Shown: one piece after another, positions 6,855-23,406 of the stretch
Numbering within the stretch: position 1 is the stretch's first letter
How the letters are laid out: every line of letters starts with the position of its first letter
Assembly: GCF_022869165.1 (NCBI RefSeq)
Contig: NZ_CP094929.1
Coordinates: 744,001 to 808,000 of the forward strand
DNA from: Sphaerochaeta associata
GTDB taxonomy: Bacteria > Spirochaetota > Spirochaetia > Sphaerochaetales > Sphaerochaetaceae
DNA length: 64,000 nucleotides
Direction of reading: 5' to 3'
The notes under the pieces: model-generated
Seen by the model: only the letters and a program-made list of their open reading frames with translations
Told to the model about the DNA's origin: nothing
The model's database searches: none
Made by a program: the position numbers and the translations under genes

Positions 6855-8321
6855 ATGGACAAACCAAATATCGTATTGATAATGACTGACGAGCAACGAG
6901 GGGATGCGATAGGAGGTCTTCCGGGTTCAGTGGTGGATACTCCCTATTTGACCCAGTTGAGAACACAAGGGGTATACTTTCCGTATGCCTACTCGGCTTG
7001 CCCAGTCTGTGTTCCTGCCCGAAGAACCCTATTGAGTGGTAAAAAACCAGCTACCCATGGGGTTTTGATGAATTATAGAGTTTCTTTGGAAGGTGATACG
7101 CTTCCAGGACTTCTACAAAAAGCTGGATATCAGACACATCTTAGCGGGAAGCTGCATCTCTTCCCTGAACGCAAGCGCTATGGATTTGAATCCTCTGATT
7201 GGGCTGATGGATGTTACAGCTCGAATCCAGACAATGATTACAATCGTTTTCTTCTTGAAAACGGTCAGTTCAATGAAGCCGGCTTGTCGCATGGAATGAG
7301 TTATAACGGGTATGCTGCTCGACCATACCATCTTGATGAAAAATTTCATTACACTACTTGGTGTACTGATATGGCTTTACGCTTCATCGAACGAAGGGAT
7401 AAGACTGCACCATTCTTTCTAAATGTCAGTTATCACCAACCTCACGCTCCCTGCACGCCTCCAGCTTATTACTACAATAAGTATTGGAATGCTGATATTC
7501 CAGAACCTTGTGTAGGTGACTGGGTTGACGATCTGCCCAATACGCAGAATGGAATGCCTGTCAATGCTTGGCGTGTCGATCCTTCCTCCCGCAGTATCCG
7601 GGAGTACCGAGCAGGATACTTGGGTTGTGTTGAGCAGATTGATCACCAAATAGGGAGAATTCTCTACAAGCTGCCTCCCAATACCATTGTAATCTTCCTT
7701 TCTGATCATGGTGAGATGCTGGGCGACCATGGATGGATCCGCAAACGCAGTGCATATGAGGGTTCCGCACGCATTCCTTTTATTATGTGGATGCCTGATG
7801 CATATGCCAAGAAGTTTGGCATCAAGCAAGGAACTGTATCCGACCTTCCAGTCGAATTGATGGATGTGCTTCCAACAGTTCTTTCCATGGCGGATATTCC
7901 CATTCCAGAGGATGTTGATGGGATATCCCTTCTTCCGGCAATGCGTGGAGAGAAGGTGGATAGGGACTATATTCACGGAGAGTGCTGCAGACTCGAAACC
8001 ATCGGTACCGGAATGCAATTCGTGACAGATGGAAAAGAGAAATATATTTGGTATCCGGCCCTTGCAAAGGAGCAGTTTTTCGATTTGGTGATAGATCCGC
8101 AAGAATTGACGGATCTTGCCAAGTCCAAGGAGCATGTAGGAAGAATCAAGGTATGGCGTAATCGCCTTATCAAGGAGCTTGAAGGCCGTCCTGAAGGTTT
8201 TGTTAAGCAAGGATCATTACAAGGCCTCAAGGGGCCAACACCATATTGTCTTTCAGAAGAACTGCTAGCTTCTGGCAGCAACTTGAAAGACACTGATAAT
8301 GGAGAGACGACGAAACAATAA
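6855..8321 (+). CDS. Sulfatase (Cys-type), choline-sulfatase/arylsulfatase-like
   Basis: The enzyme (488 aa) hydrolyses a sulfate ester. The formylglycine motif CVPAR is at residues 52-56, the C-x-P-x-R form that needs a sulfatase-modifying enzyme or an anaerobic radical-SAM maturase. The N-terminal NIVLIMTDEQRGD and LSDHGEMLGDHG near residue 285 supply metal and sulfate ligands. No signal peptide is visible, so it acts in the cytoplasm after uptake. No maturase gene is in the window. AGAGGT lies before the ATG. It stands between the TRAP importer and the second LarA-like gene, pointing to a sulfated substrate. Confidence 0.88.
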   Translation: MDKPNIVLIMTDEQRGDAIGGLPGSVVDTPYLTQLRTQGVYFPYAYSACPVCVPARRTLLSGKKPATHGVLMNYRVSLEGDTLPGLLQKAGYQTHLSGKLHLFPERKRYGFESSDWADGCYSSNPDNDYNRFLLENGQFNEAGLSHGMSYNGYAARPYHLDEKFHYTTWCTDMALRFIERRDKTAPFFLNVSYHQPHAPCTPPAYYYNKYWNADIPEPCVGDWVDDLPNTQNGMPVNAWRVDPSSRSIREYRAGYLGCVEQIDHQIGRILYKLPPNTIVIFLSDHGEMLGDHGWIRKRSAYEGSARIPFIMWMPDAYAKKFGIKQGTVSDLPVELMDVLPTVLSMADIPIPEDVDGISLLPAMRGEKVDRDYIHGECCRLETIGTGMQFVTDGKEKYIWYPALAKEQFFDLVIDPQELTDLAKSKEHVGRIKVWRNRLIKELEGRPEGFVKQGSLQGLKGPTPYCLSEELLASGSNLKDTDNGETTKQ

Positions 8322-8409
8322 GGTGAATGAGCTTCACCAAAGATAATTGGTTGCTACAGTAGTGACTTTAAATGAACGCATTCAGGTATCAATAGGTTTC
8401 CTGGATTTG

Positions 8410-8535
8410 CCGAGCATTATTGCAGGCTTTGCACAGATGTACAATGAACTTGCCCATGCCAATGGACATGGAAATGAGGATACCAGTGCCGTTTACAAGG
8501 TATTCGCAAAACAGTATGAAAAGGAGAGTAAGTAG
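8410..8535 (+). pseudogene. 3' remnant of a 3-hydroxyisobutyrate-dehydrogenase-like gene
   Basis: The last 41 codons match the C-terminus of the dehydrogenase at 54-974 (41 residues, about three differences, all near the left edge). The frame upstream to 8347 does not match and shows no domain. The remnant directly precedes LarA-like copy 2, exactly as the intact gene precedes copy 1. The ancestral duplication therefore covered both genes and the first was later mostly lost, or the end was copied in by gene conversion. Bases from 8437 on are identical to copy 1. Confidence 0.75.
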
Positions 8536-9654
8536 GATGAAACTGGATTTTGAGTATGGGGAAGGTACCATTTCGGCGAATCTGCCTGACAACACTGATG
8601 TATTCGTACCTGGCGTAACCGTCAAGGATCCACCTGCTCTTGCCCAGGATTGGGATACTCTCTATGCCGAGACACTGAAGAGTATTCAAAACCCGATTGG
8701 TATGCCACCGCTGACCAAGTTGGCAACAATGGGCAGCAAGGTCGTGTTTATCATCCCGGATATTGTGAAGGGAGGCCTTCAACCGACCAGCCATCGAAAG
8801 GTCGCCATCACTGCATGCTTGGAAGAGTTGTATAGCGTAGGCGTTGAAAAAAAGGATATCTTGATGTTGATATCCAATGGCTTGCATCCGCGTGCAACGG
8901 TGGATGAGGTGCACAAGATACTCGGGGATGACCTGTTTTACGATTTTTATCCATATGGACAGGTTACAAGCCACGATTCGGAGGATTGGGAGCACCTTGT
9001 GGATTTAGGCTATACCGCTCATGGTGATCATGTGATCATGAACAAGTATGTTTATGACGCCGATGTAGCTATTATGATCGGACATTGTCAGGGTAATCCG
9101 TATGGTGGCTATTCAGGTGGGTACAAGCATTGCACCTGCGGGATCACCCATTGGAAGAGCATTGCTGCCCACCATGTGCCGTCGGTCATGCACCGTGTTG
9201 ACTTCACGCCTGTTTCGGGAACCAGTGAGATGCGCAACAAGTTCGATGAGCAGGGCATGTTCATGGAAGAGAAGATGGGTAAGAAATTTTTCTGCTGTGA
9301 CGGCGTGCTAGATTCTGCTTCCCGTCAAATGGCCATCTTTAGTGGGTATGCCAAGGAGATGCAGCCGGCAAGCTGGAAGGTTGCAGACAATCGTACGTAT
9401 GTGCCGTTCGCTGAGAAGAAGTATGATTGTATCGTATTCGGTATGCCCACGAATTTCCATTATGGAAACGGCATGGGAACAAACCCGATTCAGATGATGC
9501 AGGCCCTTTCAGCACAGGTGATTCGTCATAAGCGGATCATGAGCGATCGCTGTGTGTTCATTGTTTCCACCATCTGTGACGGATATTTCCACGATGAACG
9601 GTGGCCGTATCTGCGTGAGATTTACACCATGTTCCAAAAGGACTATATGAATGT
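8437..9654 (+). repeat. 1218-bp identical duplication, copy 2
   Basis: This is the partner of 876-2093, identical at offset 7561. Beyond 9654 the two LarA-like genes differ at scattered positions (first at 9655, T for C), which gives a mosaic of perfect and diverged sequence within one gene. Confidence 0.85.
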
Positions 9655-10030
9655 TCTGCCGGATATGAACCGCTATGGTGAGTATTTTGCAACGAACGAG
9701 GAATACATCCGCAAGTATCGCTATTGTAATGCGTTTCATCCTTTCCATGGCTTCTCGATGATGAGCTGCGGTCACATTGCGGAGATGAATACATCTGCCA
9801 TCTATATTGTCGGTGCACGCGAGCCGGGAATTGCCAGGGGGATGGGTTTGAAGACAAGGTCAACATTCGAGGAAGCTCTTGCGGATGCCAAGCGAAAATA
9901 TCTGCCGGAGAACCCAAATATTCTAGCTTTGCCGCTTACCTTCAAGACAGGTGCCGTTCATCTTGCCATGAAGGGTGATTCCTACGATGGTACCAATGGC
10001 CACCCTGGTGATTGTACGATGATGCATTGA
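8537..10030 (+). CDS. LarA-like (DUF2088 / lactate racemase domain) protein, copy 2
   Basis: The protein (497 aa) is a nearly identical paralogue of the product of 976-2469. The only amino-acid changes seen are at the extreme C-terminus (GDSYDG for GESYDG, DCTMMH for DSTMMQ). The same Asn at the second catalytic-His position and the same cofactor Lys are present. The start at 8537 and the AGGAGAG site are copied with the gene. It follows the sulfatase and precedes the iron-type alcohol dehydrogenase, so the two copies may be expressed under different promoters. Confidence 0.8.
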   Translation: MKLDFEYGEGTISANLPDNTDVFVPGVTVKDPPALAQDWDTLYAETLKSIQNPIGMPPLTKLATMGSKVVFIIPDIVKGGLQPTSHRKVAITACLEELYSVGVEKKDILMLISNGLHPRATVDEVHKILGDDLFYDFYPYGQVTSHDSEDWEHLVDLGYTAHGDHVIMNKYVYDADVAIMIGHCQGNPYGGYSGGYKHCTCGITHWKSIAAHHVPSVMHRVDFTPVSGTSEMRNKFDEQGMFMEEKMGKKFFCCDGVLDSASRQMAIFSGYAKEMQPASWKVADNRTYVPFAEKKYDCIVFGMPTNFHYGNGMGTNPIQMMQALSAQVIRHKRIMSDRCVFIVSTICDGYFHDERWPYLREIYTMFQKDYMNVLPDMNRYGEYFATNEEYIRKYRYCNAFHPFHGFSMMSCGHIAEMNTSAIYIVGAREPGIARGMGLKTRSTFEEALADAKRKYLPENPNILALPLTFKTGAVHLAMKGDSYDGTNGHPGDCTMMH

Positions 10031-10058
10031 TCGGTTAGTACTGTAGATAATGAATGAA

Positions 10059-10090
10059 AGAGGCTGTTTCCTAGTGAGACAGTCTCTTTT
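10059..10090 (+). terminator. Terminator after LarA-like copy 2
   Basis: AGAGGCTGTTTC pairs, with G-U pairs, with GAGACAGTCTCT and runs into TTTTCTC. It is an imperfect relative of the hairpin after copy 1. Confidence 0.65.
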
Positions 10091-10212
10091 CTCTGGTGAG
10101 ATGACTCACTCAATCGAAACAAAGGGAGCATGCTTCGAAGGTGATCCTGCTGATTGACAGGATTATTAGGCTGGTGAACCGTATTTTTCGTGTTCTTAAG
10201 AGTCTTGTCATG

Positions 10213-10218
10213 TATAAT
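10213..10218 (+). promoter_or_regulatory. Consensus -10 box for the alcohol dehydrogenase
   Basis: A perfect TATAAT at 10213-10218, preceded by TG, lies 48 bases before the ATG at 10266. The -35 region is weak (TGTTCT at 10191-10196). Confidence 0.5.
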
Positions 10219-10265
10219 ACCTTTGAGATGCGTCTATATTGAAAGTAGTACAACGGAGGTCAAGC

Positions 10266-11447
10266 ATGCAGAATTTCTCATACTGGAATCCCTCACGGAT
10301 CATATTCGGCAAGGGTACAATGTCGGAAGTCGGAAAAGAAACAGCAAAATGGGGCAGGAAGGTACTGTTCCACTTTGGGGGCGGTTCCATCAAGAAGAAT
10401 GGAGTGTTCGATGCGGTCACAGCTTCCCTGAAGGATGCCGGACTCCAAATAGTGTATCTCGGCGGGGTGGTGCCCAATCCCCATCTCTCCTTGGTCCGGG
10501 AAGGGATTGCGCTCTGTAAGAAAGAGCATGTCGATTTTGTGCTGGCAGTCGGAGGGGGAAGCGTCATCGACTCCGCCAAGGCGATCGCCTTTGGTGCGAA
10601 GCTTCCTGCCTCGCAGGATGTCTGGAACGACTATTACATGAAGGCCGACTACACTATTGCTGAAGCACTGCCTCTTGGTGTTGTCCTGACAATTCCAGCC
10701 GCAGGTTCCGAGAGTTCCACCGGATCGGTTATCACCGATGCGGAGCATGGCCTGAAACGGGCGGTCAACAGCGAAACCCTCATCTCCAAGTTTGCCGTGA
10801 TGGATCCCCAAACCAACTATTCGCTTCCGGCATATCAAACCGCCTGCGGAGCATCCGATATTCTTGCACACCTGCAGGAACGGTATTTCACCACCGTCGA
10901 GCATAACGACCTCTCCGACCGCTTGTTGGAAGCCTGCATGCGTAATGTCATCACCAATGCACCGTTGGCCCTGCAGTATCCTGATGAATACCGGTATCGT
11001 GCAGAGTTGATGTGGACCGGCACCATCGCCCACAACAATCTTTTGGACAGGGGGCGGGTCGGCGACTGGGCGACCCATGACATCGAGCACGAGCTGAGCG
11101 CCTTGTACGACATCGCTCATGGTGCGGGTCTTGCAATTCTCTTTCCCGCATGGATGCGGTATGTCCACAAGGTCGATATCGATCGATTCGTGCAGTATGC
11201 AACGCGGGTCTGGAATGTCGATCTTCCGTTGAGTGATAAGGAAGGCATCGTAGAAGAGGCAATCCTGCGTTTGCAGGCTTTCTATAAGCGTATCGGCATG
11301 CCGACAACGCTCGCCGATGCAGGAATTCCTGAGGACAAGCTGCGTTTCATGGCTGAAAATGCTTTTGTGGGTGAGCGAACCTACTTGGGGAATTTCCAGA
11401 AATTGTATGTTGGGGATGTAGAAAAGATTTATAGGCTGGCGCTGTAA
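10266..11447 (+). CDS. Iron-containing alcohol dehydrogenase (butanol dehydrogenase/YqhD-like)
   Basis: The enzyme (393 aa) interconverts an alcohol or hydroxy acid with its aldehyde or ketone using NAD(P)H. The dinucleotide motif AVGGGSVIDSAKA lies near residue 95. Metal ligands are visible in CGASDILAHLQE and in the paired histidines of HDIEHELSALYDIAHGAG near residue 280. GGAGG at 10255-10259 fixes the ATG at 10266 rather than 10239. A consensus -10 and a downstream terminator make it a single-gene unit. The YqhD-type family is broad, so the substrate may be the aldehyde from the neighbouring pathway or a general fermentation aldehyde. Confidence 0.9.
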   Translation: MQNFSYWNPSRIIFGKGTMSEVGKETAKWGRKVLFHFGGGSIKKNGVFDAVTASLKDAGLQIVYLGGVVPNPHLSLVREGIALCKKEHVDFVLAVGGGSVIDSAKAIAFGAKLPASQDVWNDYYMKADYTIAEALPLGVVLTIPAAGSESSTGSVITDAEHGLKRAVNSETLISKFAVMDPQTNYSLPAYQTACGASDILAHLQERYFTTVEHNDLSDRLLEACMRNVITNAPLALQYPDEYRYRAELMWTGTIAHNNLLDRGRVGDWATHDIEHELSALYDIAHGAGLAILFPAWMRYVHKVDIDRFVQYATRVWNVDLPLSDKEGIVEEAILRLQAFYKRIGMPTTLADAGIPEDKLRFMAENAFVGERTYLGNFQKLYVGDVEKIYRLAL

Positions 11448-12766: not shown

Positions 12767-13768
12767 ATGACGGCAACAATCATTGACATTGCCAAAAAAG
12801 CTGGAGTTTCGGTTTCCACCGTCTCACGGGTCTTGAACAACAAGCCCGATGTGAGCAAGGAAACCCAGGAACGCATCCGTGCAACCATCAAGGACCTCGA
12901 CTACAGCCCCAACAAGGTGGCACGGAACTTGGTGCTCAAGCGCTCGAATGTCATCGGCTTCATCGCAAGCGACATCACCAATGCAAGCTTCCCGGAACTC
13001 GCCAGAGGCGTAGTTGTCAAAGCCAAGGAGTATGGATATTCGGTCATGTTCTTCGATGCCCACAAGGACAGCAGGGTGGAGAAGGAGGCGATCGGGCTGC
13101 TGCGAAGCAAGCAGGTCGACGGCATCATACTCTCATTCAATGAAGCCAATCGTGATGAGCTGCTCAAGCTGCGCGATGAGAACTTCCCGGTTGTCCAGAT
13201 CTACCGCAAGAGCTCGGAGTCGATGATCTCGACCATCGCCATCGATAATGTTGCCAATGGATACTTGGGAACCAAGTACCTTCTCGACGCCGGGCATACC
13301 CGAATCGGTCACATCACGACCGGGGATCTGACCCAGTCGGGATATGAACGCAAACTAGGATATCTCAAAGCCCTTACCGAGGCGAATATCGACATTGATG
13401 AGAACCTGATAGTTGAAGGCGTAAGCTCGGTGGAAGCAGGCAGGGAGTGCATGGAACGTCTTCTTGAATTGAAGAGCAGACCCACAGCACTCTTCGCCTC
13501 TCACGATGTACTGGCCATCGGTGCCTATGATGCAATCCTCGACCGGGGCTTGTCGATTCCCGGCGATATCTCGGTGGTGGGGCATGACAATATTGAAATA
13601 GCCAAGATGATCAGGCCCCGGCTGACTACCATCGATACCTTCAAGTACATCTTGGGCCAGGCGAGTGTCGATCTCTTGATAGAAGAGATGGCTGTAGAGT
13701 CGCACCAGTGCAAGGAATTGGTATATCCAGGTGAGCTGGTTGTTCGTGATTCCGTACGGATTCTTTAG
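12767..13768 (+). CDS. LacI-family transcriptional regulator
   Basis: The repressor (333 aa) has the LacI helix-turn-helix at residues 3-25 (TIIDIAKKAGVSVSTVSRVL) and a hinge ending SNVIGFI. A periplasmic-binding-type effector domain follows to residue 333. The ATG at 12767 follows AGAGGGG. Palindromes with the same AACGTT core lie both before this gene and before the next one. It is therefore very likely the local regulator of the ADP-ribosylglycohydrolase/ABC/citDEF operon and of itself. The inducer should be the imported sugar or glycoside. Confidence 0.92.
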   Translation: MTATIIDIAKKAGVSVSTVSRVLNNKPDVSKETQERIRATIKDLDYSPNKVARNLVLKRSNVIGFIASDITNASFPELARGVVVKAKEYGYSVMFFDAHKDSRVEKEAIGLLRSKQVDGIILSFNEANRDELLKLRDENFPVVQIYRKSSESMISTIAIDNVANGYLGTKYLLDAGHTRIGHITTGDLTQSGYERKLGYLKALTEANIDIDENLIVEGVSSVEAGRECMERLLELKSRPTALFASHDVLAIGAYDAILDRGLSIPGDISVVGHDNIEIAKMIRPRLTTIDTFKYILGQASVDLLIEEMAVESHQCKELVYPGELVVRDSVRIL

Positions 13769-13788
13769 GTTTAATAATTTTTTTGCAT

Positions 13789-13810
13789 GTACCGGTAACG
13801 TTACCGGTAC
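13789..13810. promoter_or_regulatory. Perfect 22-bp LacI-type operator
   Basis: GTACCGGTAAC followed directly by its exact inverted complement gives a 22-base perfect palindrome centred on CG. A possible -35 (TTGCAT, 13783-13788) abuts its left side and a weak -10 (TACTAA, 13808-13813) overlaps its right end. The operator would then fill the spacer of the operon promoter. Confidence 0.7.
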
Positions 13811-13824
13811 TAAAAGAGGATAGG

Positions 13825-14826
13825 ATGAAAGTAGGTGAAAAGAGCGGTTTGACAGAATGGGAAGAGACCTTCATCGATAGGGCCAAGGCGGCAATGGTTG
13901 CCTTGGGGGTGGGGGACGCCGCAGGCGATTTGGGCCGTGATGCCTCCGTCAGACAACAGTATGGGATTCTCAACCGCCTGCTTCCACAAGGCAAGAGTAC
14001 CGATGACACCGAGTTCGGTGTGCTCTCTGCAAAAGCATTGCTGAACTGCCCCGGCGAGTACAATGCCCGGTATGTCGCCGATACTTGGCGCGCCCTCGTG
14101 CTGGACAACGGCGGAGCACTCGACCGCGGTGGAACGCCGTTGTATGGAGCGCTCTGGAACCTCTCGGTGGGAATGAACCCTCCGCTATCGGGCATAGACA
14201 ACACCCTGAACAATGACGATGGGGCGGCCATGCGGGCGGTACCGTTCGGTATCGCCGCTGTAGGTGATCCCAAGGAAGCAGCCCGCCTGGCAGGCATTGA
14301 TGCAAGTGTAAGCCACGACCGTGATGGAATCTGGGCAGCCCAGGCGATTGCCGCCTCGATCTCCGTTGCACTTGAAGGCGCCTCCGTCGAAGAGGTTGTT
14401 GCAGTCGGCAGAGCGTGCATTCCTGATGACAGCTGGCTTGGAAGGCGGATGGATTTGGCCGATGCAATCCTTGGCGAGTTGTCCGATCCTTTCGACCAGT
14501 ATGAGGCTCTGCACACCCGGCTTTGGACTCCGCGTCATGCAATCGCCGCCGAGGCTGTGCCCCAGGTTTATGCGCTGTATCGGATGGCGCAAGGCAATTT
14601 CAGAAAGGCGTTTTTATTATCAGCGAATTTTGGTCGTGATGCGGATACAATCTGTGCCTTGACGCTCGCCCTCTGTGCAGCCGGGCAGGGCATGCAGGTG
14701 ATTCCTGAGTCATGGGTGGAGCAGGTGCGTCATCCCTCCGGTGTATGCCTGTCCTTTGCAAAAACGGAGGATCTGGTGGATCTGGGAATCGAATTGGCGC
14801 ACTTTGCATTGAAGAGAAGAACGTAA
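13825..14826 (+). CDS. ADP-ribosylglycohydrolase-family protein 1
   Basis: The protein (333 aa) has the ADP-ribosylglycohydrolase fold. STDDTEFG at residues 58-65 and GRDADT near residue 272 hold the di-magnesium ligands of this family, and GVGDAAGD opens the domain. Family members cleave N- or O-glycosidic ribosyl bonds, but many bacterial members in sugar operons have unknown substrates. GAGGA before the ATG at 13825 supports this start over 13783, which lies in the operator. It is the first gene of the LacI-controlled operon. A second, larger member is at 18789-20867. There is no signal peptide, so it acts in the cytoplasm, presumably on the imported compound. Confidence 0.82.
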   Translation: MKVGEKSGLTEWEETFIDRAKAAMVALGVGDAAGDLGRDASVRQQYGILNRLLPQGKSTDDTEFGVLSAKALLNCPGEYNARYVADTWRALVLDNGGALDRGGTPLYGALWNLSVGMNPPLSGIDNTLNNDDGAAMRAVPFGIAAVGDPKEAARLAGIDASVSHDRDGIWAAQAIAASISVALEGASVEEVVAVGRACIPDDSWLGRRMDLADAILGELSDPFDQYEALHTRLWTPRHAIAAEAVPQVYALYRMAQGNFRKAFLLSANFGRDADTICALTLALCAAGQGMQVIPESWVEQVRHPSGVCLSFAKTEDLVDLGIELAHFALKRRT

Positions 14827-14883: not shown

Positions 14884-16197
14884 ATGAAAAAGGACTCTAT
14901 GAAAGCAGTGCTCGTGCTGATGCTCATGGTTTGTCTGGTCGGCTCGCTGTTTGCAGCCGGTGCCAAGGAGAGTGCTCCAGCCAAGGAAGTTGTCACCCTT
15001 GAGTGGTGGACCTGGGATTCGGAGGAGTACAATGAGGCTTCCCAGCGTGCAATGGTAAAGGAATTCGAAGCAAGTCATCCGAATATCAAGATCAATATGA
15101 CCTTGCTGCCGACCAAAGGCTTTGAGACCAAGATGACTACCGCTTTGGGTGCCGGTGTCGGTGGACCCGACGTAGCATTCTTCTCGGTGGCCAACTGGTA
15201 TCCGAAGGCCCTGGTGCTCGACGAGTACATCAAGCGGGACAACTTCGACACCGGTATGTACTACAAGGGCTTCTGGGACACCAAGACACAGTTCAACGGC
15301 AAGACCATCGGACTTCCCCTCGGCGTAGGCGCCTCGATCGTCATGTACAATAAGGACCTCTTTGACGCAGCCGGTGTGGCCTATCCGACCAATGATTGGA
15401 CTACCGACGAGTATCTGGAGATTGCAAAGAAAGTAGCCAATCCTGCCAAGAAGGTGTGGGGTGCCGAGATTCTTACCCGTCCCTTCCGTGCAATCTGGTT
15501 CAACCATGGTGAGAATGCCAGGCTTTACAGCCCCGACAGCACCAAGGTCGACGGTTACTTGAACAGCCCCGAATCCCTTGCCGCCTACGAATGGTTCTAC
15601 GACCTGATGCGCTCGGGTGTAACACCCACCGTATCCGATATGGCTACCTTGAGCACCGAGAACACAGGACCGATCGACCTGTTCATGGCAAACCGCCTGG
15701 CAATGGCAACCCTCAACCAAGGGCATATGCTCAACGCTGTGAAGGCCGGCAAGAACTTTGGCGTGGTACGCGAACCTGGTGTCGGAAACAACCCCCGTCA
15801 CGTGAACGCATGGTCGCTTTTGGTTGGCATCTGGGAAGGCTCACAGCATCCCGAGGAAGCCTGGACGTTCCTGAAGTGGTATGTCGGACCTGAAGGACAG
15901 AAGTTCTTGATGGACAATGCAAACCTCTTCCCCTCGATCGACTCCGTGGCAAAGCAGTACAAGGATGCCGACAAGGATTACGTGAAGGGATTTTTGGAAG
16001 TCCTCAATGACACCCAGGTTGCAATCTGGCGCGGTGCACACCCCTCCGGAACAAAGGTGGAAGCCTCCATCACCGACCTTTGGGACAAGATCAAGCTTGG
16101 CCTGATCACCAAGGATCAGATCAAGGGAGAACTCAATGCACTCGTACCGAAGGCTCAGGCTGTTCTGGACGAAGCAAAGAAGACCCTGCTCTACTAA
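14884..16197 (+). CDS. Sugar ABC transporter substrate-binding protein
   Basis: The exported binding protein (437 aa) is of the extracellular family 1 (maltose/glycerol-3-phosphate type). The signal peptide spans residues 1-24 and ends LFAAGAKES. The mature start VTLEWWTWDSEEYN and the later PSIDSVAKQYKDA stretch fit the family. AAGGAGG precedes the ATG. It is followed by a hairpin and then by its two permease genes. No ATPase gene is in the operon, so a shared MsmK/UgpC-type ATPase elsewhere in the genome is expected. The substrate is probably a glycoside or modified sugar, given the flanking glycohydrolases. Confidence 0.92.
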   Translation: MKKDSMKAVLVLMLMVCLVGSLFAAGAKESAPAKEVVTLEWWTWDSEEYNEASQRAMVKEFEASHPNIKINMTLLPTKGFETKMTTALGAGVGGPDVAFFSVANWYPKALVLDEYIKRDNFDTGMYYKGFWDTKTQFNGKTIGLPLGVGASIVMYNKDLFDAAGVAYPTNDWTTDEYLEIAKKVANPAKKVWGAEILTRPFRAIWFNHGENARLYSPDSTKVDGYLNSPESLAAYEWFYDLMRSGVTPTVSDMATLSTENTGPIDLFMANRLAMATLNQGHMLNAVKAGKNFGVVREPGVGNNPRHVNAWSLLVGIWEGSQHPEEAWTFLKWYVGPEGQKFLMDNANLFPSIDSVAKQYKDADKDYVKGFLEVLNDTQVAIWRGAHPSGTKVEASITDLWDKIKLGLITKDQIKGELNALVPKAQAVLDEAKKTLLY

Positions 16198-16211
16198 ACA
16201 CTACCCAAGAC

Positions 16212-16246
16212 CATCCGGGAATCGACACCAAGTCCCTTCCCGGATG
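16212..16246 (+). promoter_or_regulatory. Stem-loop after the sugar-binding-protein gene
   Basis: A perfect 10-bp stem, CATCCGGGAA with TTCCCGGATG, and a 15-base loop lie between the binding-protein and permease genes with no T-run. This suits partial termination or 3'-end protection that raises binding-protein mRNA above permease mRNA. Confidence 0.6.
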
Positions 16247-16272
16247 CCTTGCAGGCAAAAGGCTACTGACAG

Positions 16273-17190
16273 ATGGTAACAAAACAGGTAAAACGATCGA
16301 AGGCTGCCGTGAAGGAAGCCCTGTGTGGATATCTCAGTATCTCCCCGTGGGTGCTGGGCTTCATTGTCCTCACATTCATCCCTATACTCTCAACAATCTA
16401 CTACAGTTTCACCCGCTGGACGATGATGGACAAACCGGTCTGGATCGGCTTGGAGAACTATATTCACATGTTCACCAAGGAGCCTCTTTTCTATCAATCG
16501 GTCAAGGCGACAGCACTCTATGTGCTCATGTCGCTGCCCGTGATACTCATCTTCGGCGTGCTCCTCTCGCTTCTGCTGAATATGAAGATCAAGGGGATGA
16601 ACTTCTACCGAACACTCTTCTACATCCCCGCCGTCATTTCCGGAGTCTCCATAGCAATGCTGTGGACGTGGTTGCTCCAACCCGATGTAGGCATCGTCAA
16701 CTCTGTGTTGAGCTTTTTCGGCATCCAGGGACCCAAATGGTTCTGGGATCCGAAATGGGCCCTGCCTTCAGTGGCAAGCATGAGCCTATGGAAGGTGGGA
16801 GGAAGCGCAGTCATCTATCTGGCAGGCCTGCAGAACATCCCGCCGCAACTGTACGAGGCGGCACGAATCGATGGAGCCGGCAAGCTGCGGATTTTCTTCA
16901 AGATCACCATCCCCTTGCTCACTCCAACGCTCTTCTTCCAGCTCATCATCCAGATGATCGAGGCCTTCAAGGTTTTCACCGAAGCCTACGTCATCACCAA
17001 AGGCGGTCCCTTGAAAGCCACCTACTTCTACCTGCTCTACTTCTATGAGGAAGGCTTCCAGCACTTCAACACCGGCTATGCCTCCGCCCTGATCCTGGTT
17101 CTGGTCGTCATCATCATGGCGATGACCATGTTTGTAAACTATACATCCAAGCGTTGGGTGTACTATGAAGGGGAGGACAAAGCCCGATGA
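16273..17190 (+). CDS. Sugar ABC transporter permease (MalF-like)
   Basis: The inner-membrane protein (305 aa) has six predicted transmembrane segments, starting with LSISPWVLGFIVLTFIPIL. The coupling loop EAARIDGAGKLRIFFKITIPLLTP near residue 200 is the EAA motif that docks the ATPase. It works with the next permease and the upstream binding protein. The ribosome site is weak. It overlaps the next gene by four bases (ATGA). Confidence 0.92.
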   Translation: MVTKQVKRSKAAVKEALCGYLSISPWVLGFIVLTFIPILSTIYYSFTRWTMMDKPVWIGLENYIHMFTKEPLFYQSVKATALYVLMSLPVILIFGVLLSLLLNMKIKGMNFYRTLFYIPAVISGVSIAMLWTWLLQPDVGIVNSVLSFFGIQGPKWFWDPKWALPSVASMSLWKVGGSAVIYLAGLQNIPPQLYEAARIDGAGKLRIFFKITIPLLTPTLFFQLIIQMIEAFKVFTEAYVITKGGPLKATYFYLLYFYEEGFQHFNTGYASALILVLVVIIMAMTMFVNYTSKRWVYYEGEDKAR

Positions 17191-18056
17191 AAACCGAAAC
17201 AACCTTCGAAGCAATGAAGCGAGCTCATCGGCGGAGGCAAATCACCACATCGGTGGTCACCCACTCCTTCATGATCCTGCTCTCCGTCATTTTCCTGCTT
17301 CCGATTTTCTGGATGTTCTCTACTGCCATTAAAAGCCGGTGGGATATTTTCCTTTGGCCGCCGGTGTTGTTCCCTGAAGTCCCCCAGTGGGTGAACTTCC
17401 GCGACGTATTCACCCGCGTTCCCATGTTTCGCTTCATCGGCAACACCTTCTACCTGATAGTCCTCAAGACCATCGGCGAGTTGCTTGCCGTCCCCTTGAT
17501 CGCCTACGGCTTCGCCCGTTTGAAGTTTCCCGGTAAAGGAATTTTCTTCATGCTGGTGATCAGCACGATGATGATCCCCCTGCAGACCAAGTTGATCCCC
17601 CTGTACTCCATGTACGTCAAGGCAGGTATGATCGACACCTACTGGCCCTTGATCCTCCCTGCCTTCAGCGGCACCCCATTCTTCATATTCCTCTTGATCC
17701 AGTATATGAAGACGATGCCGCGAGACCTGGATGATGCGGCGAAAATCGACGGGGTGGGCACCTTCGGAATCCTCTACCGGATTTTACTGCCGCTGTGCAT
17801 TCCGGCCTTGACCATCATCGTGACCTATACCTTCCTCTGGACGTGGAATGAGTTCCTCCAGCCGTTGATCTACCTGAACTCCTATGAGAAGTTCACCATC
17901 CAGATGGGCCTTGAGATGTTCAAGGGAATCTGGAGTGTTGAGTGGAACCTTCTGATGGCTGCCACGCTTTCGACCATGACACCGGTCCTGGTCATGTATT
18001 TCTTCGCTCAGAAGCATCTCATCGGTGGTATCGCATCGGTGGGTATGAAAGGTTGA
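17187..18056 (+). CDS. Sugar ABC transporter permease (MalG-like)
   Basis: The protein (289 aa) is the second inner-membrane half of the importer. It has six hydrophobic segments and the EAA loop DDAAKIDGVGTFGILYRILLP near residue 185. The ATG overlaps the previous stop, indicating tight translational coupling. The end RLIGG-type sequence HLIGGIASVGMKG is typical of MalG-like permeases. Confidence 0.92.
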   Translation: MKTETTFEAMKRAHRRRQITTSVVTHSFMILLSVIFLLPIFWMFSTAIKSRWDIFLWPPVLFPEVPQWVNFRDVFTRVPMFRFIGNTFYLIVLKTIGELLAVPLIAYGFARLKFPGKGIFFMLVISTMMIPLQTKLIPLYSMYVKAGMIDTYWPLILPAFSGTPFFIFLLIQYMKTMPRDLDDAAKIDGVGTFGILYRILLPLCIPALTIIVTYTFLWTWNEFLQPLIYLNSYEKFTIQMGLEMFKGIWSVEWNLLMAATLSTMTPVLVMYFFAQKHLIGGIASVGMKG

Positions 18057-18069
18057 CAAGGGGGATCCT

Positions 18070-18792
18070 GTGCCGATCAAGGTGGTAACATTTGATTTTT
18101 GGGGTACTTTGTACCGTAACACTGTTTCATTGAAGCATGAGCGCAAGGACCGAATCCGGGCCGCCTTCGACCGGTGCGGCATCACTCATATCAGTGACGA
18201 GCAGATCTACAAGGCCATGGAGAACTCCTGGCTCTTGTGGGACGACATCTGGCGCAAGGAGCAGCGCACCCTGCCGGTCGCAGAGTTCCTGGGCCTGGTC
18301 TTCGGCGAGCTTAAGATCCAGCTGCCCGAGTGGGTGATCGACGAGCTTTGCCATACGCTCCAGGAGGCGGTATTCACCGGAAATACCGTGCCCACCGACC
18401 ACATTGTCGAGGTTGTCGCCGAGCTCTCCAGATCCTACAAACTCGGCATCATCTCCGATACCGGAGTCTCCTCGGGCAAGTACCTTGGCCGGCTCATCGA
18501 ACGCGACCATCCCGGTAAATTCTCCTTCGGTCTCTACTCCGATGAACTTGGCATGAGCAAACCGGCACCCGGAGTGTTCCAGAAGGTGCTGGACATCAAT
18601 GGGTGCAAAGCGGACGAGGTGGTGCACGTAGGAGACCTGAAGCATACCGATGTCCTGGGAGCCAAGCAGGCGGGGATGTACAGCGTACGCTATAGTGGGG
18701 TCCGTGACGACATAGGCGAAGGCTTTCCCGAAGCCGATTGGGTCATCACCGACTATCGCGACTTGACTGAAATCATAAGGGGTATCAGATGA
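18070..18792 (+). CDS. HAD-superfamily hydrolase (phosphatase)
   Basis: The cytoplasmic enzyme (240 aa) has HAD motif I as FDFWGTLYRNT (nucleophile Asp8; Trp instead of the second Asp, as in several HAD-IA subfamilies). The motif III lysine lies in MSKPAPGVF and motif IV in HVGDLKHTDVLGA. It most likely dephosphorylates a sugar phosphate or related phosphate ester released in the pathway. The start is GTG at 18070 with AAGGGGG upstream. It overlaps the next gene by four bases. A role in haloacid dehalogenation is possible but unlikely here. Confidence 0.8.
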   Translation: MPIKVVTFDFWGTLYRNTVSLKHERKDRIRAAFDRCGITHISDEQIYKAMENSWLLWDDIWRKEQRTLPVAEFLGLVFGELKIQLPEWVIDELCHTLQEAVFTGNTVPTDHIVEVVAELSRSYKLGIISDTGVSSGKYLGRLIERDHPGKFSFGLYSDELGMSKPAPGVFQKVLDINGCKADEVVHVGDLKHTDVLGAKQAGMYSVRYSGVRDDIGEGFPEADWVITDYRDLTEIIRGIR

Positions 18793-20867
18793 ACATACTG
18801 CCGGAACGCTATCGACAGCGAGTCTATGCCGGATGGATTGGCAAATGCATCGGCGTGCGCTTCGGCGCTCCCATCGAGAACTGGACGTACAAGGAGATCA
18901 GGGAGAACCTGGGAATCCTTGACGGCTACCTTCCCCTGCAGCCGGGCAAGTTGTTCAAGCCCGACGATGACACCGCCTTCCCCATGGTCCTGATCAGGGC
19001 CCTTCGTGATTGGAAGGGTGAAATCTCAGCCGAAACCTTTGCCGAGGGAATGCTCAACTACCTTGCCGACCAGCGCGGCACCCTGTGGTGGGGGGGCTAC
19101 GGCATCTCCACCGAACACACCGCCTACTTGAACCTCGCAAATGGAATTTCCCCAAGCATCTCCGGCTCGGCAGCCTTGAACGGCAGTGCTCTAGCCGAGC
19201 AGATCGGAGGCCAGATCTTCAGCGATATCTGGGGCCTTGTCTATCCGAACAATCCTCTTGAGGCTGCCCGCATCTCTGAGATGGCTTCAAGCATCTCCCA
19301 TGACGGCGAGGTTTTGCAGGGTGCCCGCTATATTGCCGCTCTTGCCAGCCTTGCCTTCAGCTTCACCTCCTCAGAGAAGCTGGTCAGAGATGCCCTGATC
19401 GCCCTCGATACCGACTCCATCTACGCACAGATGGTGCATGCGATGCTCGCCTTTCATGCAGAGCACCCCCACGATTGGGAAGCGGCCTATCACTATGTTT
19501 TTGAGAACTTCGGCTACGACCGATATGCCGGAGTGGTGCCGGTAATCCCCAACGCTGCCGTCATTGTACTTGCTTTGCTCTACGGCGAAGGGGATTACTC
19601 GCGCACCATCTGCATCGGCAACATGTGCGGTTGGGACACCGACTGCAACGTGGGAAACCTTGGAGCCATCATGGCCGTTGCAGTAGGCTTGGAGGGAATC
19701 GATGAGAAGTGGCGCTCTCCGATGCAGGACGAACTGGTACTTGCCAGTATAATCGGGGCGGACAATTACCTCGATATCGCCGAGTGTGCCGACCGCATTG
19801 CCGATTGCGCAGAACGCCTGGCCGACATACGTTCAACGCGAAAACCACAACGCTACCACTTCTCCTATCCCGGCTCTACACAGGGTTGGAAGATCAGTGG
19901 AGAGGAACCCAAGATCGTTCAGCTCTGGAATACCAATACCGACCCTGCCCAACAGACCCCCGGCCTGTGTGCCGTAATCAAGAAGCTGGGTAAGAAGAGC
20001 AGTGCCTCCTGGTATGTGAAGACTTCCGTGCACACCAAGGAACTGACGGCAAACTACTACGGGGCCTCATTCTCTCCCAAGCTCTATCCGGGACAGAGGG
20101 TGCATGCAACCCTGCATCTGCCTGAAGACCAATGCCCGAATCTGCTTGCCAGCATCTACATCCGGGATCGAAACACTGGATTGACCCACCAAAGCCAGGG
20201 TGTTCGTCTCAGTGGTACAACCAAGCTCGAGTACGCCATTGAACGTATTGAGAATGCCCACATCTCGGAAGTCGGCATCGTGGTGCACCACACCGGTGAA
20301 GGTTTGGTGAACGCCAAGGTAATCCTCCAGAACCTTTGGTGGTCGGGCGAGGCCGACTACTGCCTGGACTTCTCCAAGGAGCGGGCCGAGGCGGGAGCCA
20401 TCACCCAATGGACGTTCCATCGCGGGTTCTGGCGGCTTGAGGATGCTTCCTATGTCGGCAGCGGTCCGCAGGATGCAGAGACCTACACCGGCTCCCCCGA
20501 CTGGGCCGACTACTCCTACTCCGCCCGCATACGAAGCGATATAGGATCCGGTCATGGTATTCTTGCCCGGGTGCAGGGGTATCGCCGCAGGTATGCATTG
20601 GTTCTTTCTGCAAGCAACCGTATTGTTTTGCTCAAGAAAAACAAGGGACAGAGTATTGAACTGGGTAGTGCAACGCTTCTGAATGCCGATGACGAACACC
20701 TCCTCACCTTGCAGGTGAAGGCAAATCATCTGACGGCTCTTGTCGATGGGAAGGTGGTGCTCGAGTATACCGACGAGCAGGACCCGTACCTGAGCGGGCA
20801 GGTCGGCTTGTTGCAGGGCGGCGGCGGACGCATGACCTGCCTCTCTGTCGATGTCCGTCCAAACTGA
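18789..20867 (+). CDS. ADP-ribosylglycohydrolase-family protein 2 with C-terminal lectin-like domain
   Basis: The N-terminal half (about residues 1-350) is an ADP-ribosylglycohydrolase domain, with KPDDDTAF at 57-64 and GWDTDCN near 280 as metal-binding motifs. The C-terminal part (about 530-690) resembles a concanavalin/laminin-G-like beta-sandwich as found in 3-keto-disaccharide hydrolases. It includes a TGSPDWADYSYSARI strand pair and VDGKVVLEY. The middle segment is unassigned. No signal peptide is present. The fusion suggests action on a glycan-like or glycosylated substrate rather than on ADP-ribosyl-protein. It is coupled by overlap to the HAD gene and followed closely by citD. Confidence 0.8.
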   Translation: MNILPERYRQRVYAGWIGKCIGVRFGAPIENWTYKEIRENLGILDGYLPLQPGKLFKPDDDTAFPMVLIRALRDWKGEISAETFAEGMLNYLADQRGTLWWGGYGISTEHTAYLNLANGISPSISGSAALNGSALAEQIGGQIFSDIWGLVYPNNPLEAARISEMASSISHDGEVLQGARYIAALASLAFSFTSSEKLVRDALIALDTDSIYAQMVHAMLAFHAEHPHDWEAAYHYVFENFGYDRYAGVVPVIPNAAVIVLALLYGEGDYSRTICIGNMCGWDTDCNVGNLGAIMAVAVGLEGIDEKWRSPMQDELVLASIIGADNYLDIAECADRIADCAERLADIRSTRKPQRYHFSYPGSTQGWKISGEEPKIVQLWNTNTDPAQQTPGLCAVIKKLGKKSSASWYVKTSVHTKELTANYYGASFSPKLYPGQRVHATLHLPEDQCPNLLASIYIRDRNTGLTHQSQGVRLSGTTKLEYAIERIENAHISEVGIVVHHTGEGLVNAKVILQNLWWSGEADYCLDFSKERAEAGAITQWTFHRGFWRLEDASYVGSGPQDAETYTGSPDWADYSYSARIRSDIGSGHGILARVQGYRRRYALVLSASNRIVLLKKNKGQSIELGSATLLNADDEHLLTLQVKANHLTALVDGKVVLEYTDEQDPYLSGQVGLLQGGGGRMTCLSVDVRPN

Positions 20868-20876
20868 GGCTTGTCC

Positions 20877-21137
20877 ATGAGCGGCGTCAGTGCAGGAAAA
20901 GCCCAGAAGGGAGATGTGCTTGTGACCATCAGCGAGCCTGAGAGTGATCTCAGGCTCACGGTGACCTCAACGGTGCAGGGTCTCTATGGCAGGAGAATCG
21001 AGGCGGTCTGCAAAGAATTGCTTGATGACCTACATATTGTCAAAGGACACTTTGAGGTTGTAGACCAGCAGGCTTTCGACTGTGTCATCCGGGCCCGGCT
21101 GCGCTGTGCCATCGCCCGCATGGGAGGCTTGCTATGA
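20877..21137 (+). CDS. citD: Citrate lyase acyl-carrier (gamma) subunit-like protein, attachment Ser apparently replaced
   Basis: The small protein (86 aa) matches CitD in length and pattern. KGDVLVTI is near the start, YGRRIEAVCKELL lies mid-protein and AFDCVIRARLRCAIAR is at the end. In known CitD the prosthetic phosphoribosyl-dephospho-CoA is bound to Ser14 in a TLES(G/S)D motif. The aligned stretch here reads KAQKGD, with Lys11 at that place. The start is ATG 20877 with GAGG at 20866-20869; a TTG at 20871 is less likely. Its stop overlaps citE by four bases. If the loss is real, the complex cannot carry the usual cofactor. Confidence 0.72.
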   Translation: MSGVSAGKAQKGDVLVTISEPESDLRLTVTSTVQGLYGRRIEAVCKELLDDLHIVKGHFEVVDQQAFDCVIRARLRCAIARMGGLL

Positions 21138-21994
21138 GAAGTTGGCTCTATACACCGGCGAATACCCCCTCGCGGATGATCAATGCAGGAATATACGGCA
21201 GTGACGGGGTGGTGTTCGACCTCGAGGATTCCATTGCTCCTGACCAAAAGGACGAGGCACGCTTCCTGCTTGAGGAGATGCTGGGCGTCATCAAGGCGGA
21301 TCTACAGAGGCAGGGCATCCTTTGCAGGCTGGCAGTGCGAATCAACGGCTTGGACACAGCATGGTGGCAGGCCGATTTGAGTGCATGTCTCCATGCAGGT
21401 GTACAGCTGGTCAGGGTACCCAAGGTTGAATCTCAAGCTGATGTACACCGAATCAGTGCATATCTGGACCAATTGGAAGCAGAGTTGATGCTTCCACCAG
21501 GAACCACCAAAATCCAAGCATTGCTGGAGACGCCGCTTGCAGTGGAGCATGCGTTCCTCATTGCGAGTGCTTCTGCAAGAATTGTCGCCTTCTCCTTTGG
21601 TGCCGAGGACTACTGTGCCGCCCTGGGACTGCGAAGGAAGGAAGCCTCGCTTGCCCTCGACTACCCGCGCTCGCGCATTGCCAGTGCCGCTGCAGCCTTC
21701 GGCTTGGAAGCCTACGACTCGGTCTGGGGTTTCTTGGACGACCAGGCAGGATTGATCGAGGATGCAAAACGCTCCCGTTCATTGGGCTTCTGCGGCAAGT
21801 CGGTCATTCATCCCAACCAGATCAATGTGATCAATGAAGTCTTTTCGTTCTCCGCCCAAGAGGTCGAGGAAGCGAAGAGGATAGTCGAGGCTGCAGAGGG
21901 CACGACCTCTGGTGTGCTCTCTGCAAAGGGAAGAATGGTGGACAAGCCGGTGGTGCTTTGGGCCAGGCGGGTGCTTGAAGGGAGAACGCAATGA
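21134..21994 (+). CDS. citE: Citrate lyase beta subunit-like (CitE) HpcH/HpaI aldolase-family protein
   Basis: The protein (286 aa) shows the CitE series RSWLYTPANTPSRM, GVVFDLEDSI, VRINGLDT, VRVPKVE, ALLETPLA, FSFGAEDYCAALGL and GFCGKSVIHP, covering CoA-thioester and Mg2+ binding. In citrate lyase it cleaves citryl-thioester to oxaloacetate and acetyl-thioester; homologues act on malyl-CoA or citramalyl-CoA. Genes citD, citE and citF overlap by four bases each, so they form a complex. The lack of citC, citX and citG nearby and the altered CitD argue against ordinary citrate fermentation. Confidence 0.88.
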   Translation: MRSWLYTPANTPSRMINAGIYGSDGVVFDLEDSIAPDQKDEARFLLEEMLGVIKADLQRQGILCRLAVRINGLDTAWWQADLSACLHAGVQLVRVPKVESQADVHRISAYLDQLEAELMLPPGTTKIQALLETPLAVEHAFLIASASARIVAFSFGAEDYCAALGLRRKEASLALDYPRSRIASAAAAFGLEAYDSVWGFLDDQAGLIEDAKRSRSLGFCGKSVIHPNQINVINEVFSFSAQEVEEAKRIVEAAEGTTSGVLSAKGRMVDKPVVLWARRVLEGRTQ

Positions 21995-23406
21995 AGGAAG
22001 TCCTGACTCTGAAAGAGGCGATCGCACGAAGTGGCCTAACGAGTGGGATGCGCATCAGCTTCCATCACCACCTTCGCCTGGGAGACAGGGTGGTCGGCCT
22101 TGTGTTGGATCTCCTTCAAGAGATGCACTTCGCCGATTTGACGTTGTGCGTTTCCTCCATTATGGGAGAGGCTTGCGAGGCTGTGCTTCGAGCAGTCAGA
22201 GCCGGGGTGGTAACGCGTATTGAGACCACCGGTATGAAGTCACCGCTCAGTGAAGCGGTGCTGAACAATGAGGTTCCCCATCCGGTTGTATTTCGCACCC
22301 ATGGGGGGCGTGCCCGCGCGATTGAAGAGGGGCAGACTCCGGTCGATGTCGCCTTCATTGCAGCCTCGGCTGCCGATAGGCAAGGCAATCTGAACGGGAC
22401 TTCGGGTCCCAATCCCTTCGGCTCGATGGGGTATGCACATGCCGATGCCGAATATGCAGGGTATGTAATCGCCATCACCGACTTTCTCAGTGAAGAACCT
22501 CTTGCCTATCAATCGATCAAGGCAAAGCTTGTCGATGTTCTGGTCAAGGTTGACTCCATCGGTGAGAGCGAGCAGGTCGGCGGTGGTTCTCTGAGAGTCT
22601 CTCAGAACCCCACTGAGCACCTCATTGCCGAGCGTACCTTGGCGGTTATGCAGGCAGCTGGGACCCTGAAACCGGGCTTCAACTATCAGGCGGGCAGCGG
22701 CGGCATTTCGCTGTTGGTTACCAATCTGCTTGAACAGTATATGAAGCAGCATGCGCTGCAAGGCGGCTTCGCTTCGGGTGGTATTACCGGGACCTTGGTC
22801 CGTATGGCCAAGGAGGGACTGTTTCATACGCTGTGGGATGTCCAGAGCTTTGACGGCGAGGCCGCCCTTTCTGTTGCTGAGAACTCATTTCATAAGGAGA
22901 TGAGCGCCTCCTTGTATGCCAATCCCAACAACCCCGCCTGCATCGCCCATCAGCTGGATGTAATGATTCTCTCGGCTACCGAGGTAGACCTCGATTTCAA
23001 TGTGAACTCCGTATCCGGCACCGACGGCCGCATTCTCGGGGCCTTGGGCGGCGGCCCCGATACCGCCTATGGGGCGAAGCTCACCATTGTGGTGCTGCCT
23101 TCCTTCCGTGGCCGTATTCCTATGATCAACAAAGAGGTTAATCTCATCTGCACTCCCGGCAGCGATGTGGATGTCGTGGTGACCGAACGGGGGATTGCGG
23201 TCAATCCAAACAGGGAAGACCTTCTCAAGGCTCTCAAGCAAGCCAATCTCAAGCCCATTACGATAGAAGAGCTGATGATGCGCATCCACGCTCTTACCGG
23301 AGAGCCGATGCTGCCAAAGAAAGAGGGCAGCGTGGTTGCCGTGGTGGAAGACAGGTATGGGAAGAAACTTTCACCGTTGTACTCGTCTCTGGATACCCAG
23401 GACTGA
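21991..23406 (+). CDS. citF: Citrate lyase alpha subunit-like (CitF) CoA-transferase
   Basis: The protein (471 aa) is a two-domain CoA-transferase-type subunit. It contains ISFHHHLRLGD near the N-terminus, HGGRARAIEEG, DVAFIAASAADRQGN, a QAGSGGISLLV loop near residue 233 and ERGIAVNP near 400. CitF normally exchanges acetyl for citrate on the ACP subunit. It is somewhat shorter than the roughly 510-residue enterobacterial form. The stop codon at 23404-23406 coincides with the start of a degenerate repeat copy (TGACCATTTCTGATC), so the 3' end may have been trimmed by that element. It is the last gene of the LacI operon. Confidence 0.85.
   Translation: MKEVLTLKEAIARSGLTSGMRISFHHHLRLGDRVVGLVLDLLQEMHFADLTLCVSSIMGEACEAVLRAVRAGVVTRIETTGMKSPLSEAVLNNEVPHPVVFRTHGGRARAIEEGQTPVDVAFIAASAADRQGNLNGTSGPNPFGSMGYAHADAEYAGYVIAITDFLSEEPLAYQSIKAKLVDVLVKVDSIGESEQVGGGSLRVSQNPTEHLIAERTLAVMQAAGTLKPGFNYQAGSGGISLLVTNLLEQYMKQHALQGGFASGGITGTLVRMAKEGLFHTLWDVQSFDGEAALSVAENSFHKEMSASLYANPNNPACIAHQLDVMILSATEVDLDFNVNSVSGTDGRILGALGGGPDTAYGAKLTIVVLPSFRGRIPMINKEVNLICTPGSDVDVVVTERGIAVNPNREDLLKALKQANLKPITIEELMMRIHALTGEPMLPKKEGSVVAVVEDRYGKKLSPLYSSLDTQD

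Follow-up and report, generated by a model that had tools for sequence, protein, structure and literature searches.

We have identified, in a 64,000-nucleotide stretch of the Sphaerochaeta associata genome (hereafter the window), a citD gene whose product has lysine in place of the serine to which the prosthetic group of citrate lyase is attached. The evidence supports a conserved, arm-less variant of citrate lyase that is undescribed in the open-access literature searched, where we found no report of a CitD without the attachment serine or of a module joining ADP-ribosylglycohydrolase (ADPRH) genes to citDEF. Textbook accounts treat a covalent phosphoribosyl-dephospho-CoA arm as the defining feature of the bacterial enzyme.

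A CitD homologue with lysine at the attachment site

The ORF at 20877..21137 on the + strand, preceded by an AGG that is a plausible ribosome-binding site, has a translation that starts MSGVSAGKAQKGDVLVTI and ends AFDCVIRARLRCAIARMGGLL. Its product is a CitD homologue (PF06857, 64.2 bits against a gathering cut-off of 25.1). It scores below both the citD equivalog TIGR01608 (47.6 bits, cut-off 63.5) and the MdcC equivalog TIGR03130 (17.3 bits, cut-off 84.1). The first-pass annotation had stated that CitD length is kept, which needs a minor correction, the protein having 86 aa against approximately 98 in classical CitD.

That annotation had also placed Lys11 (codon AAG, 20907..20909, + strand) opposite the modified Ser14 of CitD, and the placement is borne out both by an alignment of actual sequences and by structure. 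In an alignment that took in the CitDs of Klebsiella, E. coli, Melissococcus, Gluconobacter and Peptoclostridium together with MdcC (5vit_C), Lys11 falls without gaps on Ser14 of Klebsiella CitD and on Ser25 of MdcC. The motif AG-x3-[S/K]-x-D runs ungapped across the aligned CitDs, the site being anchored by a small residue and Gly before it and Asp after it, and where TLES(S/G)D would be expected the window protein reads KAQKGD. Ser25 of MdcC is the prosthetic-group site and is situated in a loop (PMC5534430). A direct sequence search of the PDB with the window CitD gave no convincing match. Its AlphaFold2 model (pLDDT 94.9) has the CitD/MdcC fold, with 5vit_C as the best structural match (Z 11.1 over 82 residues; next 8.7). 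Superposition sets residues 1-83 on MdcC 15-97, an offset of 14 that brings Lys11 onto Ser25, and residues 7-12 of the model, Lys11 included, form a loop.

The alternative that Ser2 or Ser5 is the modification site, raised at the outset, fails when checked: Ser5 precedes the AG anchor, and in the CitD of Sphaerochaeta sp. UBA6084 (L032/L068; 57% identical, 50/86 residues), which is the closest relative, there is not a single Ser ahead of the Asp. This relative carries an identical GKAQKGD block. The two proteins agree at all 13 residues of AGKAQKGDVLVTI (hypergeometric P 4e-4; 0.014 after scanning), although six of these codons carry silent differences; this marks the site as conserved, and as neither decaying nor a sequencing slip. 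The replacement of the attachment Ser by Lys in the window CitD is thus confirmed.

Two further ORFs overlap in series after citD. citE (21134..21994, +), the start of which overlaps the citD stop (ATGA), encodes a CitE-like C-C lyase subunit (PF03328, 165 bits) that stays below the TIGR01588 equivalog cut-off (232 against 443 bits). Residues E31, D32, R69, E132, D159 and D270, the catalytic residues of the CitE superfamily as named in PMC3832036, are invariant over 34 sequences. The start of citF (21991..23406, +) in turn overlaps the citE stop; its 471-aa product is a family II acyl/CoA transferase subunit (PF04223; TIGR01584, 509.6 bits, above the 501.45 cut-off) that matches 1xr4_A with an E of 3.7e-117, about 42 N-terminal residues of 1XR4 being missing. 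In CitF 43 positions are invariant. The three genes, with their ATGA overlaps, are translationally coupled and always found together, and CitD and CitE are often fused. Several CitF positions that vary little or not at all among Ser-type enzymes carry another residue here (C181F, V378S, H393G/A, and A470 mostly I/V, in Klebsiella numbering). These changes are common to the window clade and a CitX-less sister group, as are differences at CitE R4 and E62; they may be adaptations to free CoA or mere clade marks. The window CitF resembles in length that of Peptoclostridium (L102 5123-6538), both being without the classical N-terminal segment, but they do not group closely in the tree.

Absence of the arm-making genes

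Profile searches for CitX, CitG, CitC and MdcG gave no match in the complete 3.55 Mb genome from which the window comes. This lends independent support to the earlier suggestion that the enzyme has no covalent arm, and the absence of CitC fits an arm-less enzyme because acetylation of the arm would not be needed. All three of CitX, CitG and CitC are present in a genome of the same genus that has a Ser-type CitD (TMESSD; G387). Among the first 38 genomes, 10 were without CitX and CitG and the TLES motif occurred in none of these; the remaining 28 had both, with CitC in 28/28 (frameshifted in G340). Moreover, in a second family, none of the six genomes with only Lys/Arg-type CitD (G245, G498, G501, G503, G526, G529) had a match to CitX, CitG or CitC.

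Detectable CitX, CitG and CitC accompany a Ser-type CitD in nearly all genomes that have one. CitX went undetected in five draft genomes with Ser-type CitD, four of which had CitG and/or CitC; single absences in drafts are therefore weak evidence, and the window genome is complete. Several genomes hold a Lys-type CitD together with CitX. A second, Ser-type CitD explains each of them, in G513 only by way of a truncated contig: the contig with CitX starts part-way through a second citE, and a second citD was probably lost from the assembly. Since related genomes share the same state, the CitE/CitF tree offers only 1-2 independent contrasts, and the correlation with CitX is strong in pattern and not in formal statistics. 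The absence of a covalent 2'-(5''-phosphoribosyl)-3'-dephospho-CoA arm from the window CitD is well supported.

Distribution of the Lys/Arg type

We ran PF06857 against 393 spirochaete genomes, 139 from the window's order and 244 from another order, and read the matches and their gene neighbours. An ADPRH2-linked CitD, in a module ADP-ribosylglycohydrolase-CitD-CitE-CitF, was found at 19 loci in 19 genomes, counting one (L140) where ADPRH2 is inferred only from a fragment at the contig start. The first-pass annotation had proposed looking for close homologues that share both the KGD-type site and the ADPRH context, and these exist: the site residue is Lys in 18 of the 19, Arg in one (G245) and Ser in none. 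Together with the fully conserved block, this rules out sequencing error or decay as the source of the Lys type. Elsewhere Ser occupies the site in 73 of 76 CitDs, the exceptions being Lys (L041, L046) and Ala (L034); six of these 73 are of a short-N-terminus kind in which alignment of the site is uncertain, and among ordinary full-length CitDs the count is 67/68.

Most ADPRH-linked CitDs are fused to CitE, and the fusion-type proteins mostly retain a Ser beside the Lys (KSD). In the window, L068, L135, L148 and L070 the residue beside the Lys is Gly or Met. In the best CitE+CitF tree the window clade stands apart from the first two fusion loci. This tree rejects a single origin of all non-Ser types (Lys, Arg and Ala; AU p 6e-6) but not a single clade of the five ADPRH-linked rows that it contains (AU p 0.125). 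An apparent triple ADPRH-CitD-CitE fusion at L122 was discarded, the long frame being a shifted reading through GC-rich DNA with ADPRH2 in another frame. The plasmid relatives listed by tblastn with the window and L033 CitDs are ordinary CitD annotations or unannotated records, and those sequences that were read carry Ser.

In one genome (G340; L046, L073) a citrate locus that is ordinary in other respects encodes a CitD with Lys at the site (STEKSD); the citC of this genome is split by frameshift and stops, citG lies in two frames, and citX and a second, Ser-type CitD are present. A separate citDEF lineage was also seen (L030, L034, L036-L041 and L072, in G043, G278, G151, G167, G078, G072, G123 and G099). 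Here the CitD N-terminus is mostly short or diverged, the site is Ser, Lys or Ala, and 2HCT or Tct citrate-type transporters adjoin where the neighbourhood was read. These genomes are without CitX and CitG, and CitC is absent apart from weak matches; the lineage is possibly a second class of arm-less citrate lyase. In this second CitX-less group citDEF stands with 2HCT or Tct transporters in G099, G278 and family f29, and so arm-less lyases may act on citrate itself too.

The gene cluster upstream of citDEF

The cluster, all on the + strand, is headed by a LacI-type regulator (12767..13768), read from the sequence and with a Pfam LacI orthologue in L032. There follow ADPRH1, a second gene of the ADP-ribosylglycohydrolase family (13783..14826; PF03747, 127.4 bits; start codon uncertain), and a carbohydrate-type ABC importer (14884..18056) made up of a binding protein (14884-16197) and two permeases (16273-17190 and 17187-18056), its genes 84-90% identical to their counterparts in L032. 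A HAD-family phosphatase (18070..18792; PF13419) precedes ADPRH2 (18789..20867; PF03747, 164.8 bits), an ADP-ribosylglycohydrolase-family enzyme with a C-terminal extension. ADPRH2 ends 9 bases before the citD ATG, and the same gene adjoins Lys/Arg-type CitD in other loci. Further upstream, at 6855-11447, there are ORFs that resemble a sulfatase, a lactate racemase and an iron alcohol dehydrogenase, as recognised by eye only. The closest named relative at the window locus is Sphaerochaeta sp. UBA6084, where citDEF is followed (L032 12731-20182) by an FGGY kinase, an L-arabinose isomerase and a class II aldolase-family gene in araBAD-like fashion, together with a tripartite tricarboxylate transporter (Tct).

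Plasmids of Agrobacterium, Deinococcus and Nitratireductor (L096, L097, L099) hold a conserved LacI - sugar ABC - ADPRH1 - ADPRH2 arrangement without citDEF, and a ribokinase is present in two of the four plasmid ADPRH loci read. These plasmid clusters appear to be an uncharacterised riboside-type catabolic system. Since the ADPRH pair, regulator and sugar importer exist without citDEF, the ADPRH part would be a separate module, probably for riboside or furanoside catabolism, to which the arm-less lyase was joined. The arm of citrate lyase holds a ribosyl 1''-2' bond like that of poly-ADP-ribose. Cleavage of the arm as the main role of the ADPRH enzymes was considered and rejected, as the same pair sits in sugar clusters without citD.

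A proposed lyase using free CoA thioesters

The reading that we favour, at a probability of roughly two in three, is an arm-less complex of the citrate lyase type that works on free CoA thioesters, with CitD as scaffold and possibly a Lys/Arg clamp. CitF, a family II transferase, would convert acetyl-CoA and a citrate-like 3-hydroxy acid to the acyl-CoA and acetate, and CitE would split this product into an oxo-acid and acetyl-CoA; free CoA thioesters would stand in for the covalently bound arm. Activity of isolated citrate lyase subunits on CoA esters has likewise been reported (Dimroth and Eggerer, 1975). We infer the use of free CoA by the complex; free CoA esters are the substrates of those CitE-like lyases that have been characterised (PMC3832036), and free malonyl-CoA is decarboxylated by MdcD-MdcE, CoA resembling the arm (PMC5534430). 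We likewise infer a scaffold role for CitD, which would be retained as a bridge between CitF and CitE; MdcC is the bridging subunit of its complex (PMC5534430), and a role of this kind would explain why CitD is kept. Lastly, we hypothesise that the Lys/Arg conserved at the former attachment point holds the CoA phosphates non-covalently, the cation meeting the 3'-phosphate that is present in free CoA and absent from the arm. In the MdcA-MdcC model Ser25 lies approximately 10 Å from the CoA ribose 2'-OH (PMC5534430), a gap that Lys and a phosphate could span. The Ala at this site in the CitX-less lineage L034 indicates that a basic residue is not always needed.

Among the alternatives, the one to be taken most seriously, although unlikely, is that the complex has lost its lyase function, with CitD a relic or purely structural and CitE and CitF doing another job, for example that of a CoA transferase with a different substrate. 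The low score of CitE against its equivalog model (232 vs 443), the CitF replacements C181F, V378S and H393G/A, and a cluster that offers sugar-type transport and ADP-ribosylglycohydrolases with no citrate transporter would all suit it. It sits poorly, however, with the invariance of all the CitE catalytic residues and of 43 CitF positions, and with the coupling, constant company and frequent CitD-CitE fusion of the three genes; moreover, the 2HCT or Tct tricarboxylate transporters that adjoin the CitX-less sister group make arm-less lyases of citrate-like acids plausible. Less probable still is a carrier that remains a carrier, Lys11 or another CitD residue being modified by a different enzyme with a swinging arm, for example lipoyl or biotin. 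Apart from one Arg, the ADPRH-linked clades keep the Lys strictly, and it lies in the model loop (residues 7-12) as Ser25 of MdcC does (PMC5534430), yet the same site is Arg in G245 and Ala in L034, the fold is that of MdcC/CitD and not of a lipoyl or biotinyl domain, and a dedicated modifying gene was not found in the shared cluster.

We consider it very improbable that the searches overlooked a divergent CitX/CitG which puts the usual arm on another part of CitD. HMM searches can miss very divergent proteins, and the fusion-type proteins mostly keep a Ser beside the Lys (KSD), but Gly or Met takes the place of that Ser in the window, L068, L135, L148 and L070, L032/L068 have no Ser before the Asp, and four separate families (CitX, CitG, CitC and MdcG) would have had to escape detection in a complete genome.

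Returning to the arm-less lyase, its LacI/sugar-ABC/ADP-ribosylglycohydrolase neighbourhood suggests an imported glycoside as the compound from which the substrate hydroxy acid is released. The most far-reaching version, for which we hold the odds to be somewhat unfavourable, is that of a widespread arm-less class in which Lys/Arg grips the CoA phosphates and whose Lys/Arg clades serve an ADPRH-started catabolism of an imported glycoside. If the arm-less reading is correct, there is a natural form of the enzyme without the arm, its attachment Ser and three maturation enzymes, and the arm is dispensable. Such a simpler, maturation-free lyase could be studied or engineered and would offer a direct test of the arm's purpose, and the label 'citrate lyase acyl carrier protein' would be misleading for such genes.

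Comparison with known systems

The window genes share with classical CitD, CitE and CitF (TIGR01608, PF06857) the fold, the family, the order citD-citE-citF, the CitE catalytic residues and a CitF above its cut-off. They differ in the exchange of Ser for Lys, a CitD score below the TIGR01608 cut-off, a genome without CitC, CitX and CitG, and clustering with ADP-ribosylglycohydrolases and a sugar ABC importer. MdcC (5vit_C) is the best structural match, with SGD where the window has KGD; however, its Ser25 carries the arm, the window genome is without MdcG, and the sequence score is 17 against a cut-off of 84. The citramalate lyase-type citDEF of Peptoclostridium acidaminophilum (L102), which lies by methylaspartate mutase, likewise has a CitF of 471 aa, whereas its CitD keeps the Ser, its locus has citX and citC, and it groups with Ser-type enzymes in the tree. 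The CitE-like malyl-CoA lyase, RipC and CLYBL have the same catalytic residues, and those characterised act on free CoA esters, but they have no CitD or CitF partner. Finally, the LacI/sugar ABC/ADPRH1-ADPRH2 clusters of rhizobial and Deinococcus plasmids have the same two ADPRH genes, regulator and importer, ADPRH2 being 30-37% identical over nearly its full length; in place of citDEF they carry a ribokinase and/or a UgpC-type ATPase.
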